Assembly: GCA_025355855.1 (NCBI GenBank)
Contig: JANXYU010000034.1
Location: forward strand, 1 to 48,597
Direction of reading: 5' to 3'
Length of the DNA: 48,597 bases
Source of the DNA: Actinomycetota bacterium
GTDB lineage: Bacteria > Actinomycetota > JAHEXW01
The notes under the pieces were generated by a model, which searched no databases, was not told the DNA's origin, and worked only from the letters and a program-made list of their open reading frames with translations. The position numbers and the translations under genes were made by a program. Position 1 is the first letter of the stretch. Every line of letters starts with the position of its first letter. Shown in pieces: positions 74 through 38,717 of this stretch.

Positions 74-1177
74 ATGGTTGATACACTTAACACGACCGAA
101 CTCTGCTGAGGCCCTCCCGTTACGCCGGCAGGCGAACGGCAGGCGCCCGGTCGGGACCAGTCATTTGTTATCGATAATATTGAAACGGCGGCGGGCCCGG
201 TCCCAACAGTCGCGACTCGTTTAAACCTTGCCGACCGCCTGGGACACTACCGCGTTCGCTGGGGGATTGGCCGCGACCACTATAAGGTCGACCCTGGTTT
301 GTACGCTGTCGGAAACCCGACGGCTGAATCTCCCGTACTGGTGACCGCCAACTATAAACTCACCTTCGACGTGGTGCGATCGCGGCTGGACGGCCTGGAC
401 GCCTGGCTCATGGTTCTGGATACGCGAGGCATCAACGTCTGGTGCGCGGCGGGTAAAAGGACGTTCTCCACGGAAGAGGTAATCGGGCGGATCGAGTTCG
501 ACCGTTTAGCGGATGTCGTTTTCCACCGGCGGCTGATCCTGCCGCAGCTGGGCGCGCCCGGCGTGTCAGCGCACGAGGTCAAGAAGGCAACCGGCTTCAC
601 GGTCAAATACGGGCCGGTTAGAGCGACGGACATCCCGGCGTACCTGGCCGCCGGCCTGCAGACGACTCCGGAAATGCGCGAGGTAACTTTCAGCCTGCGG
701 GAACGAGCGGCTTTGACTCCGGTTGAATTGTCCGGGGCTTGGAAATACATTCTGGCGGTCTTGGCCGCGTTTATCGTCTTCGGCCTTTTTACTACCCATC
801 CGCTGACAGCCGGCGGTTTCTTTAGAACTCTGTCCGAGGATCTGGCGCCGTTCGCAGCCGGCGTTATTGGGGGCGCCGTGTTAACGCCGCTCTTGCTGCC
901 GTGGTTGCCGCCCCGGATGTTCGCGGCCAAAGGCGCGATTATCGGAATTATCGTCGGGGCCGGGGTTGCCCTGCTTATACACCCAACCTTGATGGTAGGC
1001 CTGGCGGTAATCCTGGTCACGGTGGCTATTACTTCCTATATGGCCATGAACTTTACCGGCTCCACGCCGTTTACTTCTTTGTCCGGCGTCGAGCGCGAGA
1101 TGCGCCGTTGGATGCCTATCCAAGCCGGCGCGGCCGTGATCGCTCTGCTGGCCGTATTGTTCCGGGGGATTATCTGA
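74..1177 (+). CDS. hgcA: HgcA, corrinoid mercury-methylation protein, putative selenoprotein (in-frame TGA 107-109)
   Basis: HgcA is the membrane corrinoid protein that transfers a methyl group to Hg(II), working with the ferredoxin HgcB. With TGA at codon 12 read as selenocysteine the product is 367 aa. The cap-helix motif NVWCAAGK spans residues 121-128; Cys124 is the expected lower cobalt ligand. Other hallmarks are TANYKLTFD, HRRLILPQLGAPGV and YGPVRATDI. About five membrane helices follow (roughly 223-239, 257-276, 286-303, 305-323, 351-365), with the HgcA-typical SYMAMNFTGSTPFTSL at 321-336. The N-terminus reads MVDTLNTTELC, then TGA, then GPPVTPAGERQ. Between the TGA and TTG 299 there is no ATG, GTG or TTG in frame, although conserved sequence (ETAAGPVPTV, VRWGIGR) is encoded there. 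Starting at 299 would lose it. The true stop is TGA at 1175-1177, sharing one base with hgcB. Family assignment is nearly certain; Sec decoding is inferred. Sequencing error or a non-canonical start are the alternatives. Confidence 0.93.
117..139 (+). promoter_or_regulatory. Candidate SECIS hairpin in hgcA mRNA
   Basis: Starting 7 nt after the TGA at 107-109, CCG (117-119) can pair with CGG (137-139). A bulged T120, a T121-A136 pair and an A122/A135 mismatch follow, then CGCC (123-126) pairs with GGCG (131-134) around a GGCA loop (127-130). The guanines of the loop sit 18-19 nt after TGA. The E. coli fdhF SECIS likewise has a bulged U and a G-rich apical loop at about this distance. The folding was done by eye. 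Confidence 0.45.
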
Positions 1178-1461
1178 TGGAAACATTCAAATATATCGAG
1201 GGCGGCACGACGCTGTCACTGGACAAGAATAAATGCACGGGATGCGGCATGTGCCCGCGGGTCTGCCCGCACGCCGTGTTGGAAATGAAAGACAAGAAAG
1301 CCGAAATTGTCCGTCGGGACCGGTGTATGGAATGTGGGGCTTGCGCGATGAATTGCCCTGCCGACGCTCTGTCGGTCCGCCCCGGCGTCGGCTGTGCCAG
1401 CGCCGTTATCGCCAGCTGGTTTCCGTGGCGGAAGAATACCGCCCCGTCCTGCAATTGCTAA
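1177..1461 (+). CDS. hgcB: HgcB, 2[4Fe-4S] ferredoxin of mercury methylation
   Basis: HgcB is the electron donor thought to reduce the HgcA corrinoid and help deliver mercury. The 94-aa product has two 4Fe-4S motifs, Cys20/23/26/30 (CTGCGMCPRVCP) and Cys50/53/56/60 (CMECGACAMNCP). It also has the family-specific lone cysteine in PGVGC (Cys73) and a C-terminal cysteine pair (Cys92, Cys94; here C-N-C rather than adjacent). The start ATG overlaps the hgcA stop by one base, so the two are translationally coupled. The combination of neighbour, length, PGVGC and the tail cysteines separates it from generic ferredoxins. Confidence 0.95.
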   Translation: METFKYIEGGTTLSLDKNKCTGCGMCPRVCPHAVLEMKDKKAEIVRRDRCMECGACAMNCPADALSVRPGVGCASAVIASWFPWRKNTAPSCNC

Positions 1462-1501: not shown

Positions 1502-1873
1502 TTAGTCACTACTCCGCAATATTTCTTTGGCTCGCCAGCGCGATAGGTTGAGCGACTGCCAGCGGGAGAATAACGGCCGACGCTCAAGCAAGATCGTTTC
1601 GCGCAGTCTGTCGCCGTATTGTTTCCTGATGCGGCTGTCCTTGTTCTTCAGGAGGGGTACCGTCACAGGCAACGCGTCATCTGACAAGCTTCCCAGATAC
1701 CGGGCGTCGATCTTGCCGGTTGCTGAATATCTGCGCATGTTTTGGCGAGCAACATAGGCGTCCGGATTGAGCACATTCGTAAACGCTAAGAATGCGATTA
1801 GCAATAAAAAGACCTTGAAGGTGAAATTGCTTTCCCGGCTGTCGAGATAAATCTTTGAGATTAGGAAAGCCAC
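1502..1873 (-). pseudogene. C-terminal remnant of a DUF4173-type membrane protein
   Basis: The 123-residue reading frame resembles the C-terminal end of DUF4173 integral membrane proteins: one hydrophobic segment (VFLLLIAFLAFTNVL), then NPDAYVARQNMRRY and YLGSLSDDALP. The several N-terminal membrane helices of that family are missing. In frame upstream there is only a short stretch before a TAG at about 1910-1912, followed by the divergent dehydrogenase gene. It could be expressed from GTG 1873 (a GGAGGA lies upstream), but a decayed fragment is more likely. It is convergent with hgcB. Confidence 0.55.
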
Positions 1874-22592: not shown

Positions 22593-25310
22593 TCAAATAG
22601 GGGTCGCTTGCATCTTGACGCGAACGTCGACGGCCCGGCAGCCGCGGTCTTTATTGCCAACCATCAGGGGGTTTATCTCAATCTCGGCAATCTCGGGGAA
22701 ATCCTCGATCAGCATGGAGAAACGCAACAGTACTTCTTTGAGAGCGGGAACGTCACGAACCGCCGCGCCGCGCCAGCCTTGCAGAATCGGCAATCCTTTT
22801 AGTTGATTGAGCATCCAGTCGACGTCCACGTCAGTCAGGGGCTGCAGAGAAAACGCCACGTCCTTCTGCAGCTCCACGTGCACACCGCCCAACCCGACCA
22901 TCAACAACGGTCCGAAAACGGGGTTCTGCGACATGCCCACGATAACCTCTTGCGCGTCCTCGATCATGGCTTGCACAATGACGCCGTCGACGTGGTCGAG
23001 CAGGTCCGCCTGCTTGAGGCGCCGCATCATTTTGCCGTAAGCCGCCTTGACCTTGGTCTCGCTGGTTAAGCCGAGCGCGATTCCGCCGACATCCGTTTTA
23101 TGCACGATGGTTTCAGACCTGATCTTCAAAGCGACTGGGAAGCCTATTTCCGACGCGCTTTTGGCGGCGGCGGCAGCCGATTCCGCAACCCGCGTCGGCA
23201 CCATCGAAATTCCGTATGCCTCCAGCAAGCCGGCGGCCACTTCGGGAAGCAGCCACGCACCCGCCTCGCTGATGGGATTGGAGCGGAAGAATTTGTATCG
23301 GATATGGTTCGCGATTATGTCCGGGAAATCAGGCAAGGCGCCTTCCGGCTCCTGCCGGTACTGGGAGTAGTTATAGGTGTGGGCCAGCGCCTGCGCAGCG
23401 CTTTCCGGGAACACATAGGACGGCACATACCGTTTGGGTCCGATCTGCAGGTCGGGCGTGGAGCCGGCCGACATCATGAAGTTGGCCAAAACGGGCTTGT
23501 CGCCCGCGTAGTCTTTTAGAACTTCCTTGATCGCCTTGGCCACGTCTTCCGGCCGGGTAACAAGCGGCGGGATATAAATGAGAATGATGGCGTCCAGGTC
23601 GGGGTCTTCCAGCATCGCCGCGAGCGTTTGTTTGTAATATGCCGCTGTGGCGGAGGCCATCATGTCAACTGGATTACTGAGCGCGGCCTCGGCCGGCAGG
23701 AAAGCTTTTAGTCTCTTTTGCGCTTGGGGAGACAACTTGGGCACTTTAAGCCCCAGACCTTCACACGCGTCTGCGACCAGGACTCCCGGTCCGCCGGCGT
23801 TCGTCAGGATGCCGACATTGGGACCCTTTGGAACCGGTTGATTTGCCAACGCGGCCGAAACGCCAAACATCTCGTCAATCGTATTGACTCTAATGACTCC
23901 GGCCTGCCGGAACAAAGCATCGGACCCGACGTCGGCAGCGGCCAAAGCGCCGGTATGAGACGACGCCGCCCTGGCTCCGGCTTCCGACCGTCCCGCTTTG
24001 ACGGCGATAATCGGCTTCTTCCGGGACACGCGGCGCGCAATCCTGGTGAAACTGTATGGATTTCCGAACGATTCGACGTACAGTAGAATCACGTCCGTCT
24101 TGTCGTCGTCCTCCCAGTATTCCAGGAGGTCGTTATTGGAGATATCGACGCGGTTGCCGATGCTGACAAAGTCGGCAATCCCCAGGTTGATGTTGTTGGC
24201 GTAATCGAGCAGCGCCAGTCCCAGTGCCCCGCTCTGCGTGCCGATGCTCAAGTTCCCCGCCGGCGGAGTGACCGGGGAGAAAGTGGCGTTCAGCCGGACG
24301 TCGGGGTCGGAATTCAAGACGCCAAGACAGTTGGGACCGATGACGCGCATGCCGTACGCGAGAGTCTTCGCTTTCAGCAGGCGCTCCCGCTTTTTGCCCT
24401 CCGGACCGGCCTCGCCGAACCCGACTGAGATTATGACCAAGCCGCGAACGCCTTTCTTGCCGCATTGGTCGACCACGGCCAGCACCTTATCGGCGGGAAC
24501 GACGATCACAGCCAGATCGATGTCGCTCGGCACGTCCAGAACCGTTGGGTAAGACAAAACTCCGGCCACCGATGTGGTGTTCGGGTTTATGGGGAAAACG
24601 GGCCCATTGAAATTGGTGGATAGCAGATTGTGAAACAGCGCGCCGCCGACGCTCTCCGCATTACGAGAAGCGCCAACCACCGCGATGCTGTGCGGGTAGA
24701 GGAATGTCCCGACTCCCGCGGTCCGCGCGATGTGCTCTCGCGCCGCTTGCCGTTTGGCGAACTCTTCCTGCTGTTCAAGATTGATTGAAATATGGTAGAC
24801 GCCATCGGAGAATTTCTTGGTTGTTTTGAAGCCGCTTTGGTCGAACAAAGCGAGCATCCTGGTATTTTCCGGCAGGACCAGCGCAACGAACCTCTTAATT
24901 CGATAATGAGCCGCCGTCTCGACGAGTTTCTCCAGTAGGGCCGTCCCGACACCGCGCGTTTGGTAACTCGTCCCAACAACGAAGGTGACCTCCGCGCTCT
25001 TCATGTCGGAAGTCGCGTCGTAGCTGGCCACCGCCAGGATCCGCTCTTGGCGGCCTTCGCCCTGGGTGGCGACGTAGACACAGTTTTCAGGCAGTTTGGC
25101 CGCTGTGAACCTGGCGATTTCTTCGTCGCCGGTATGGTGTTTGGCATACTGCCAGCGGTAATAGCTGGTCAGGGGGCTCATTCTGTTGAAGAGCCGTTTC
25201 AGGTTGACGCTGTCATCAGGCTCGACCGGCCGAATACGCAGCGCTTGTCCGTTGCGAAGAATCGCTTCGTCGGGCTGATCCGGCCGCCCGCTCTTCTCAA
25301 TAAATATCAT
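22593..25310 (-). CDS. GNAT - acyl-CoA synthetase (NDP-forming) fusion
   Basis: Large protein of 905 aa. Residues about 10-165 are a GNAT acetyltransferase domain (acetyl-CoA loop in SYQTRGVGTALLEKLV). Then comes a CoA-binding domain (YPHSIAVVGASRNAESVGG), succinyl-CoA-ligase-like domains with the phospho-His motif SSHTGALAAADVG, and a C-terminal ATP-grasp domain (GFPVALKI...HKTDVGG, EIEINPLMV). The architecture matches Pat-type protein acetyltransferases in which the ligase part is often catalytically dead. The conserved phospho-His suggests it may still be an active acetate/acyl-CoA ligase (ADP-forming). The GNAT is N-terminal here, not C-terminal as in E. coli PatZ. Monocistronic. Confidence 0.88.
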   Translation of the reverse strand: MIFIEKSGRPDQPDEAILRNGQALRIRPVEPDDSVNLKRLFNRMSPLTSYYRWQYAKHHTGDEEIARFTAAKLPENCVYVATQGEGRQERILAVASYDATSDMKSAEVTFVVGTSYQTRGVGTALLEKLVETAAHYRIKRFVALVLPENTRMLALFDQSGFKTTKKFSDGVYHISINLEQQEEFAKRQAAREHIARTAGVGTFLYPHSIAVVGASRNAESVGGALFHNLLSTNFNGPVFPINPNTTSVAGVLSYPTVLDVPSDIDLAVIVVPADKVLAVVDQCGKKGVRGLVIISVGFGEAGPEGKKRERLLKAKTLAYGMRVIGPNCLGVLNSDPDVRLNATFSPVTPPAGNLSIGTQSGALGLALLDYANNINLGIADFVSIGNRVDISNNDLLEYWEDDDKTDVILLYVESFGNPYSFTRIARRVSRKKPIIAVKAGRSEAGARAASSHTGALAAADVGSDALFRQAGVIRVNTIDEMFGVSAALANQPVPKGPNVGILTNAGGPGVLVADACEGLGLKVPKLSPQAQKRLKAFLPAEAALSNPVDMMASATAAYYKQTLAAMLEDPDLDAIILIYIPPLVTRPEDVAKAIKEVLKDYAGDKPVLANFMMSAGSTPDLQIGPKRYVPSYVFPESAAQALAHTYNYSQYRQEPEGALPDFPDIIANHIRYKFFRSNPISEAGAWLLPEVAAGLLEAYGISMVPTRVAESAAAAAKSASEIGFPVALKIRSETIVHKTDVGGIALGLTSETKVKAAYGKMMRRLKQADLLDHVDGVIVQAMIEDAQEVIVGMSQNPVFGPLLMVGLGGVHVELQKDVAFSLQPLTDVDVDWMLNQLKGLPILQGWRGAAVRDVPALKEVLLRFSMLIEDFPEIAEIEINPLMVGNKDRGCRAVDVRVKMQATPI

Positions 25311-37012: not shown

Positions 37013-37047
37013 GAGATTACAAAGAGTACAAGGAGTACAAAGATGAC
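37013..37047. repeat. AAGAGTACAAGGAGTACAAAG repeat, left arm
   Basis: Purine-rich tandem of GATTAC, AAAGAGTAC, AAGGAGTAC units just after the stop of the small gene at 37069-37299. The inverted counterpart is at 37304-37341. Related words occur at 17380-17466. It may be a small mobile or recombinogenic repeat. Confidence 0.6.
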
Positions 37048-37068
37048 GTGGGCGTAAAACCCTAGCAC

Positions 37069-37299
37069 TCATTCTTGCTCATTTGTCGGGTCCAGCGCTT
37101 CTCCATCAGAGCAGCAGCCTGAGCCGCGCCCAGGTCGCGTCGTTCCGTCATTGCGAGGAGCCTCATCTTTCGACGCGGCAAACTCCCCTTCATCTTCGTC
37201 GTTCCCGACCGGGAACCAGTTGATAGGTCCTCAACCACCGCCGAAGTCGCCGAAGTCTTCCGTTAATTTCTTCAAGATTTCCTCCCGTCTGCCTTCCAT
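37069..37299 (-). CDS. Putative small selenoprotein of unknown function (in-frame TGA 37233-37231)
   Basis: Unannotated by ordinary ORF rules because of one internal TGA. The start ATG 37299 has a perfect AAGGAG 6 nt upstream. The frame encodes MEGRREEILKKLTEDFGDF, then GGG, TGA (codon 23), GPINWFPVGN, an acidic middle, and a C-terminal GSGCCSDGEALDPTNEQE before a TGA at 37069-37071; 76 residues with the first TGA read. Sec23 in GGGUGP and the Cys62-Cys63 pair could form a redox or metal site. A 6-bp hairpin with a GGTC loop follows at the SECIS distance. The middle (37147-37189) resembles a common REP-like element. It lies directly downstream of ccdA (stop 37340) on the same strand. No family is recognised. 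Confidence 0.65.
37201..37216 (-). promoter_or_regulatory. Candidate SECIS hairpin (GTTCCC-GGTC-GGGAAC)
   Basis: On the minus strand GTTCCC pairs perfectly with GGGAAC around the loop GGTC. The loop begins 21 nt after the TGA at 37233-37231. Bacterial SECIS elements carry G in the first two loop positions, and E. coli fdhF has GGUC about 19 nt after UGA. This is the best SECIS match in the window. Confidence 0.65.
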
Positions 37300-37303
37300 A
37301 ATG

Positions 37304-37341
37304 AACTCCTTGTAATCCTCGTACTCTTTGTACTCTTGGTC
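37304..37341. repeat. AAGAGTACAAGGAGTACAAAG repeat, right arm (inverted)
   Basis: Reads on the minus strand as AAGAGTAC, AAAGAGTAC, GAGGATTAC, AAGGAG units, inverted relative to 37013-37047. The last unit supplies the Shine-Dalgarno of the small gene, and the first overlaps the 3' end of ccdA. The two arms thus bracket the small gene exactly. Confidence 0.6.
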
Positions 37342-37990
37342 ACACCCGCCACAGATAATATAGTCCTACGGCAATCAACGCAACGCCGCTTACAATATCG
37401 ACGTATTTCTTAGCCGACTGCATCTTTTTCAACCAAACCGTCGCCGCCCCGGCCACCGTGCCCAGGAATATCAGTGGAACGCCGTGGCCAATGCCAAAAA
37501 TAAACGCCAGAACCCCGCCAAACACCAGCCTACCCTCGCGCAGCGCCACCGCCAGGACCGGCGTTAAGTAGGAAATCCCGCACGGCCCCATAACAAAAGC
37601 GCCGATGACCCCCAGAATAATCGCCCCGAGTATGCCTCTGCGTTTAGTGGGGCCGAGATTGCCGTTCATAAAGCGCGGCAGGGGCAAACGATATACGCCC
37701 AAAAAACTTAAGCCGATCGCAATCAATATTATTCCGGCGAGGAGCGAAATCAAATACTGTTGCGTCCGAAAGAAGCCGCTTACCAGAGATATCGCCGCGC
37801 CGAGCAATCCAAAAACAACCGCCATGCCGAGTACAAACGCGCTGGACAAGACGAATCCCTGGCTCTTAGGAGCGTCGCCTTCCGAGGTTTCGTAAGCGAC
37901 ATACGTAAGAACGATCGGAAACATCGCCCACATGCAGGGGCTTAGAACCCCCGAGACGATACCCCAGCCGAGAGCTGCCAAATACGCCAT
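37340..37990 (-). CDS. ccdA: CcdA-family thiol-disulfide transmembrane protein
   Basis: Membrane protein of 216 aa with six helices that carries reducing equivalents from cytosolic thioredoxin to extracytoplasmic thioredoxin-like proteins. The two redox cysteines are in SPCMWAMFP (helix 1) and GPCGISYLTP (helix 4), both standard for CcdA/short DsbD. The start overlaps the stop of the Sec-thioredoxin gene by one base, and that protein is its obvious partner. Confidence 0.92.
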   Translation of the reverse strand: MAYLAALGWGIVSGVLSPCMWAMFPIVLTYVAYETSEGDAPKSQGFVLSSAFVLGMAVVFGLLGAAISLVSGFFRTQQYLISLLAGIILIAIGLSFLGVYRLPLPRFMNGNLGPTKRRGILGAIILGVIGAFVMGPCGISYLTPVLAVALREGRLVFGGVLAFIFGIGHGVPLIFLGTVAGAATVWLKKMQSAKKYVDIVSGVALIAVGLYYLWRV

Positions 37991-38430
37991 TACTTCACCA
38001 GCGCTTGAATCTCCGCGACCAGCGCGTCCTTAGCGACTTGCCCCGTCCAGTTCTTTGCCTCGCTGCCTTTGTTGTCAAACAAAAAGGTCATTGGGACGTA
38101 TTGGACATTATATTTGGACGCGACCGGCTCTTCCGAAGCGTTATCAACGAAGACGACCACGAAATTCATCTTGGATTTGTACTGGGGTTTCAACTCATCG
38201 ACCAACTGGCCCATCGCGATGCAGGTCGGTCAGGTCGCGCTCCGCAGTAACAACAACGTGGGTTTACCGCTGGCCAACGCCTTGTCGATGACCGGCTGAG
38301 ACGAGCCGTCGGAACCCCTGCCCGTCGAGGTAGAAGTCTGTTGGCTAAGCCGCGGCACCACGATGATCGCGGCGATTATCAGCACGCCGATAACGACGGC
38401 CGGTTTCCAATAATTTTTCACTGTTCGCAT
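37990..38430 (-). CDS. Membrane-anchored thioredoxin-like selenoprotein (UxxC active site)
   Basis: With the TGA at 38232-38230 read as selenocysteine this is one frame of 146 aa: signal anchor (VVIGVLIIAAIIVV), Ser/Thr/Gly linker, strand KPTLLLLRSAT, then the active site U-P-T-C (Sec67, Cys70), helix IAMGQLVDELK, strand MNFVVVFVDN and the cis-Pro loop YVPMTFLFD. The TGA falls exactly on the first Cys of CxxC, the nucleophile, the classic Cys-to-Sec position. Splitting it at TGA would leave two fragments, neither with an active site. ATG 38430 is very close to AGGAGGG; GTG 38421 may be the true start. It overlaps arsR and ccdA. Presumably extracytoplasmic, recharged by CcdA. Confidence 0.88.
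38196..38221 (-). promoter_or_regulatory. Candidate SECIS hairpin of the thioredoxin gene
   Basis: On the minus strand CATCG (nt 9-13 after TGA) pairs with CGATG (nt 30-34). After a 2-nt G-T bulge on the 3' side, CGA pairs with TTG (one G-U), leaving the loop TGGGCCAG. A G-rich loop at about nt 18-20 fits bacterial SECIS rules, but the stem is less perfect than that at 37201-37216. Confidence 0.4.
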
Positions 38431-38717
38431 CCCTCCTGGTATCTGGACTGAAGTTCACTGTGAATCGTCGTGCAAAACCATTTGAGTTTCTCACCGCACG
38501 CCGAGTACAGAATGCTGTTTCCGGCGCGGCGGCAGTTCAACAAACCGATCAGACGAAGATGGCGAAGGTGGTGCGATGTCAAAGGCTGTGATAAACCGGT
38601 GCGGGTCGCGATATCGCCGACACTTAGTTCCCCTTCGCCCACTAAGAGCAGGAAAATGTTGAACCGGTTCTCGTCTGAAAGATTTTTGAAGACCGCCAGC
38701 AATTCATCTGTTTTCAT
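38418..38717 (-). CDS. ArsR/SmtB family transcriptional regulator
   Basis: Winged-helix repressor of 99 aa: MKTDELLAVFKNLSDENRFNIFLLL, recognition region ELSVGDIATRTGLSQPLTSHHLRHLRLIGLL, then a beta-wing. The ArsR-type ELCVCDL metal site of helix 3 is absent (GELSVGD); cysteines instead occur in NCRRAGN, SACGEK and WFCTT, plus GCEQ at the tail. The inducer could be metal, metalloid or redox. ATG 38717 sits exactly at the predicted transcription start (leaderless). It overlaps the thioredoxin gene by 13 nt and heads that operon. Confidence 0.9.
   Translation of the reverse strand: MKTDELLAVFKNLSDENRFNIFLLLVGEGELSVGDIATRTGLSQPLTSHHLRHLRLIGLLNCRRAGNSILYSACGEKLKWFCTTIHSELQSRYQEGCEQ

Follow-up and report, generated by a model that had tools for sequence, protein, structure and literature searches.

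The window analysed here, a stretch of 48,597 nucleotides from an Actinomycetota bacterium, encodes a functional-looking hgcAB pair that is predicted to form methylmercury, and its HgcA is, with a probability of roughly 0.87 on the sequence evidence, a selenoprotein in which the in-frame UGA at 107-109 would be decoded as selenocysteine (Sec, U). This assignment is made because the TGA sits at the column that reads Cys-Cys (CC) or Cys-Sec (CU) in related proteins, and because the CU loci carry a GG-loop hairpin 17-19 nt past the codon.

The hgcA gene (74..1177, forward strand) runs from ATG 74 to the stop TGA 1175-1177 and, translated with TGA as U, encodes a corrinoid membrane protein of 367 amino acids with Sec at residue 12. 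The hgcB gene (1177..1461, forward strand), whose ATG at 1177 shares one base with the hgcA stop, encodes a two-cluster ferredoxin of 94 amino acids. Profile searches under NCBI curated cut-offs scored HgcA at 440.9 bits against a cut-off of 275 (NF040863, profile positions 1-323 of 325) and HgcB at 117.7 bits against 99 (NF040864), confirming the pair that an earlier note on this DNA had placed at 74-1461. The motifs on which that identification was built are likewise present: NVWCAAGK, which fits the cap-helix pattern N(V/I)WC(A/S)AGK, and the membrane motif SYMAMNFTGSTPF in HgcA, and two CxxCxxCxxxCP motifs, PGVGC and a C-terminal CNC in HgcB. The cap-helix region TRGINVWCAAGK (421..456, forward strand) holds the corrinoid-ligand cysteine, and N121, W123, C124 and A126 are invariant in an alignment of 22 homologues. 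The HgcB tail reads SCNC rather than CC, and its GVGC motif contains no Sec. A leaderless promoter at the TATAAT box (61-66) before ATG 74 was unsupported by a promoter scan.

The locus is genuine HgcAB. Placement of these proteins among CFeSP/CdhD paralogues, the outcome against which the earlier note had cautioned, does not occur, as judged by the family cut-offs and by the best PDB match of the HgcA model, the HgcAB model 9a0b (E 4.5e-21). CFeSP gamma chains do match in sequence and fold, with PF03599 reaching 54.5 bits and with CFeSP chains following 9a0b among the structural matches, over the corrinoid domain. The CFeSP gamma model, however, gives only 80 bits on this protein against 440.9 for the NF040863 equivalog, the membrane domain and the hgcB partner are both present, and the real CFeSP gamma of the source bin is a separate gene on contig C30. 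That the protein is a CFeSP/CdhD paralogue instead of HgcA is refuted by the family cut-off and the structural match, and retains practically no probability.

The pair had been described as complete, a description that passed over the fact that hgcA reads through TGA 107-109 (forward strand). This codon is the sole internal stop in 367 and lies in the context C-U-G-P-P, giving the N-terminus MVDTLNTTELC[U]GPP and a Cys-Sec pair at C11-U12. It falls exactly at the Cys/Sec column of named relatives, which reads CC in L020 and L022-L025 and CU in L021, L026-L029, L032, L033 and L039, mostly in a C-C/U-G-P context. Among other actinobacterial genomes, U occupies the column in G055 (CUGPP) and G121 (RUGPP). 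In the latter protein (L119, G121:C35) Sec has been kept and the adjoining Cys lost, which offers a natural test of a Cys-Sec pair versus Sec alone.

Translation table 11 ends the hgcA frame at TGA 107-109, and the longest standard open reading frame begins at TTG 299. If the TGA were a true stop, hgcA would be decaying after a loss of Sec decoding, or would yield a shortened HgcA from a downstream start, either a non-standard codon or TTG 299, the first common start past the TGA. Starting at TTG 299 would, however, delete residues 1-75, and with them two strands and one helix of the corrinoid domain in the structural model and the first ~33 profile positions. The position of the stop at the exact Cys/Sec column and the lack of any further lesion in the 367 + 94 codons of the pair also argue against a true stop.

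A SECIS-like hairpin is predicted by folding directly after the TGA (110..147, forward strand), with the apical loop GGCA at 127-130. The bacterial SECIS criterion applied was a G in the apical loop of a hairpin located 16-37 nt past the TGA, and the GGCA loop lies at 17 nt, on a bulged stem (four contiguous apical pairs, a bulge and five pairs) that fails a strict five-pair filter and whose fold energy alone is unexceptional (z -1.1 to -1.7). The case for a SECIS element rests on the pattern across the family and not on the window hairpin by itself. GG-loop hairpins with at least 5 contiguous base pairs and a loop 15-19 nt after the codon occur at 9 of the 11 U loci, compared with a mean of 0.27 and a maximum of 3 of 11 in 1000 trials on shuffled sequences, and at none of the seven CC loci at the same distance. 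The stem pairs covary, with compensatory changes across loci.

The remaining question is whether the host decodes Sec. In the source bin (G000; 1.34 Mb in 35 contigs, 91% complete, contamination 0.04%) no selA, selB, selD or tRNA-Sec was found above cut-off, and no remnants of a sel cluster were found at the bin contig ends with proteins of the two nearest relatives, G001 and G002, or with DNA as queries. Weak tRNA-Sec matches in the bin proved to be ordinary Leu, Ser, Arg, Cys and other tRNAs. The bin nevertheless encodes two FdhA-type genes (L188, G000:C30:129568-131583; L190, G000:C20:11734-12501) with canonical Sec contexts (ARLUHSPTVAGL and ARIUHSSTVAGL, respectively), each with a GGTC-loop hairpin after the TGA. 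The window itself contains a membrane-anchored thioredoxin-like gene (37990..38430, minus strand; Pfam Thioredoxin, 40 bits) with TGA at 38230-38232 in the context ATUPTC (UxxC). It is 91% conserved in the congener G001, TGA included, further actinobacterial genomes carry UPAC counterparts, and the gene is an independent sign of Sec use by this genome. An ArsR-type regulator, this UxxC protein and CcdA stand in a row on the minus strand (37337-38717).

At one contig end the congener carries selD-yedF-selA-selB, and G002, from the same order, holds selA-selB-tRNA-Sec together in one cluster; with such clustering, a single gap can eliminate the whole set. The likeliest explanation of the missing genes is therefore an assembly gap, given the FdhA and thioredoxin Sec genes in the bin and the sel cluster in the congener. 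SelB was found in all 10 other U-bearing genomes and, over cut-off, in 29 of 31 genomes overall, including almost all CC genomes, and its presence therefore does not discriminate U from CC. The failure to find sel genes in the bin would fit a true stop at 107-109, while the Sec codons of FdhA and the thioredoxin, intact in the same bin, speak against it; a true stop is thus held to be quite unlikely, and Sec decoding of hgcA is the preferred reading.

Several further TGA codons were encountered. The SelD proteins of the two relatives (L112, G001:C13; L113, G002:C3) are apparently selenoproteins themselves (GKSGUASKLGP and KAGUAAKIGP), with the TGA near the start. The single TGA reported for FlpD (PF02662) in G000 and G001 is an ordinary stop at the gene end and was discarded as Sec evidence. 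A small open reading frame at 37070-37299 (GGGUGP, with a GGTC-loop hairpin) was considered as a new selenoprotein and set aside, as it belongs to no family and its segment (37014-37340) is missing from G001. Inverted repeats of 30 nt with 87% complementarity flank this segment, which is probably a small mobile-element-like insert; its reading frame is possibly a lineage-specific small selenoprotein.

The host is a sparsely sampled deep lineage of Actinomycetota, as only G001 (congener) and G002 (same order) were found to be closer to it than phylum level. A genome of the same phylum, G023, matched Streptomyces, Nonomuraea and Nocardia records exclusively, which places the host in Actinomycetota. 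The window's GyrB shares 95% identity with that of G001, 78% with that of G002 and ~70% or less with the next. Both results bear out the actinobacterial host proposed earlier. Window positions 1523-46992 are collinear with contig C16 of G001, local differences aside. The first shared sequence to the right of hgcAB, from 1523, lies in the downstream gene (1502..1873, minus strand), which is conserved in G001 (76% identity by blastn). Left of the window, G001 sequence resumes at the start of bin contig C31 after ~5 kb of unrelated genes, and a profile search found no hgcA in G001. Since G001 synteny flanks hgcAB on both sides, the pair lies in a variable interval of ~5 kb between conserved blocks, and is absent from the congener. 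Elsewhere in the window, the translation of 22593-25310 (minus strand) gives a 905-aa fusion of an acetyltransferase-like N-terminus with an apparent ADP-forming acyl-CoA synthetase.

The hgcA start is 73 bases from the contig end. This edge position of the pair (bases 74-1461), the onset of G001 synteny only at 1523 and the branching of HgcA beside Desulfobacterota would all fit a chimera or contamination, in which hgcAB of another organism, for example a desulfobacterium, was joined to an actinobacterial contig. Such a join would, however, need to fall exactly in the intergenic stretch, hgcAB resembles its neighbouring genes, and the contig generally, in codon usage, the contamination of the bin is 0.04%, and the nearest HgcA relative is 52% identical, on a long branch (0.8) with no known donor near. 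A chimeric origin is accordingly rated very unlikely, and hgcAB is taken to belong to the actinobacterial genome.

Across the phylum, HgcA was found over cut-off in 9 of 396 genomes, the one from which the window derives included, and in one further genome, G218, it is split in two frames. In a tree of 30 sequences some actinobacterial HgcAs grouped with Leptolinea (Chloroflexi) and others with Nitrospirae/Fibrobacteres, and the window protein alone took a third position, beside a Desulfobacterota clade with moderate support (86/94). A single actinobacterial HgcA clade was rejected (p-AU 1.8e-7), and grouping of the window with the Leptolinea-type actinobacterial group alone was rejected less firmly (p-AU 0.028). 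Comparison of the HgcA phylogeny with genome taxonomy, as proposed in the earlier note, thus pairs an Actinomycetota host with an HgcA from beside Desulfobacterota; the reading of HgcAB in an actinobacterial genome stands, but it had overlooked the Sec, this branching and the nearness of hgcA to the contig end. The branching beside Desulfobacterota suggests that hgcAB was probably gained laterally, from or with a Desulfobacterota-like branch, into the variable interval. Actinobacterial hgcA has been known from the literature since 2020, when it was reported in 17 MAGs, and lateral transfer of hgcAB is proposed in that report (PMC7438021).

The AlphaFold model of HgcA (mean pLDDT 83) combines a corrinoid domain with five membrane helices (208-238, 246-277, 283-302, 306-326 and 339-364). 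Residues 1-18, which include the Cys-Sec pair, form an unstructured tail with pLDDT below 50, and this predicted tail is consistent with a second flexible arm for binding metal. In published HgcAB work, HgcA-bound Co(I) cobalamin receives its methyl group from SAM, electrons come from the HgcB clusters, and the flexible HgcB cysteine tail is proposed as a shuttle for Hg(II)/methylmercury (PMC11588087, PMC7305189). Under the mechanism proposed here, UGA 107-109 would be decoded by SelB and tRNA-Sec, directed by the hairpin at 110-147, to give a flexible N-terminal HgcA tail ending in the C11-U12 pair. By extension from the published work, HgcA would carry cobalamin with the cap-helix C124 as lower ligand, the two [4Fe-4S] clusters of HgcB would reduce it to Co(I), and SAM would supply the methyl group whose transfer to Hg(II) would give methylmercury. 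The Cys-Sec pair may provide an extra ligand for Hg(II)/MeHg or act as a redox pair, by analogy with the HgcB cysteine tail. A wider proposal is put forward only tentatively, and is rather doubtful: that the N-terminal selenolate is a functional Hg/MeHg ligand making methylation Se-dependent, that Sec-hgcA circulates laterally among Sec-decoding phyla, and that this genome alone represents a third, distinct lineage of actinobacterial HgcA.

Selenium binds mercury very tightly, and a selenolate in a methylating enzyme therefore raises a testable link between Se supply and methylmercury. Standard gene callers either end this hgcA at codon 12 or place its start 75 codons too far downstream; metagenome surveys may therefore undercount or mis-score Sec-type methylators. 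With the present locus, a deeply branching actinobacterial lineage joins the potential methylators.

HgcAB, its actinobacterial carriers and Sec-containing HgcA have each been described already, and what is new is their combination in a deep actinobacterial lineage. With reference to Haft & Gwadz 2023, a 2026 selenoproteome catalogue (PMC13188914) assigns HgcA (NF040863) the motif CU and HgcB the motif GVGU, and a Sec variant of HgcA is also mentioned in PMC11588087. The window HgcA shares with the catalogued form the N-terminal Cys-Sec pair, in the CUGP context of several desulfobacterial genes, and differs from it in its Actinomycetota host and its own long branch; the window HgcB has Cys (GVGC) where the same catalogue gives GVGU for some selenoprotein HgcBs. 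The biochemically studied HgcAB of Pseudodesulfovibrio mercurii ND132 is alike in the cap-helix Cys, the corrinoid domain with five membrane helices and the two-cluster ferredoxin, whereas the window pair has Sec in the HgcA tail and an HgcB ending in SCNC, compared with the C94-C95 pair of ND132. The CFeSP gamma subunit (AcsC/CdhE) has a homologous corrinoid domain but is without the membrane domain and hgcB partner. The hgcAB pairs that McDaniel et al. 2020 (PMC7438021) reported from Actinobacteria likewise derive from poorly described anaerobic lineages for which lateral transfer was proposed, and the sections of that report used here do not mention Sec, in contrast to the Sec of the window HgcA, which belongs to neither of the other two actinobacterial HgcA clades in this sample.
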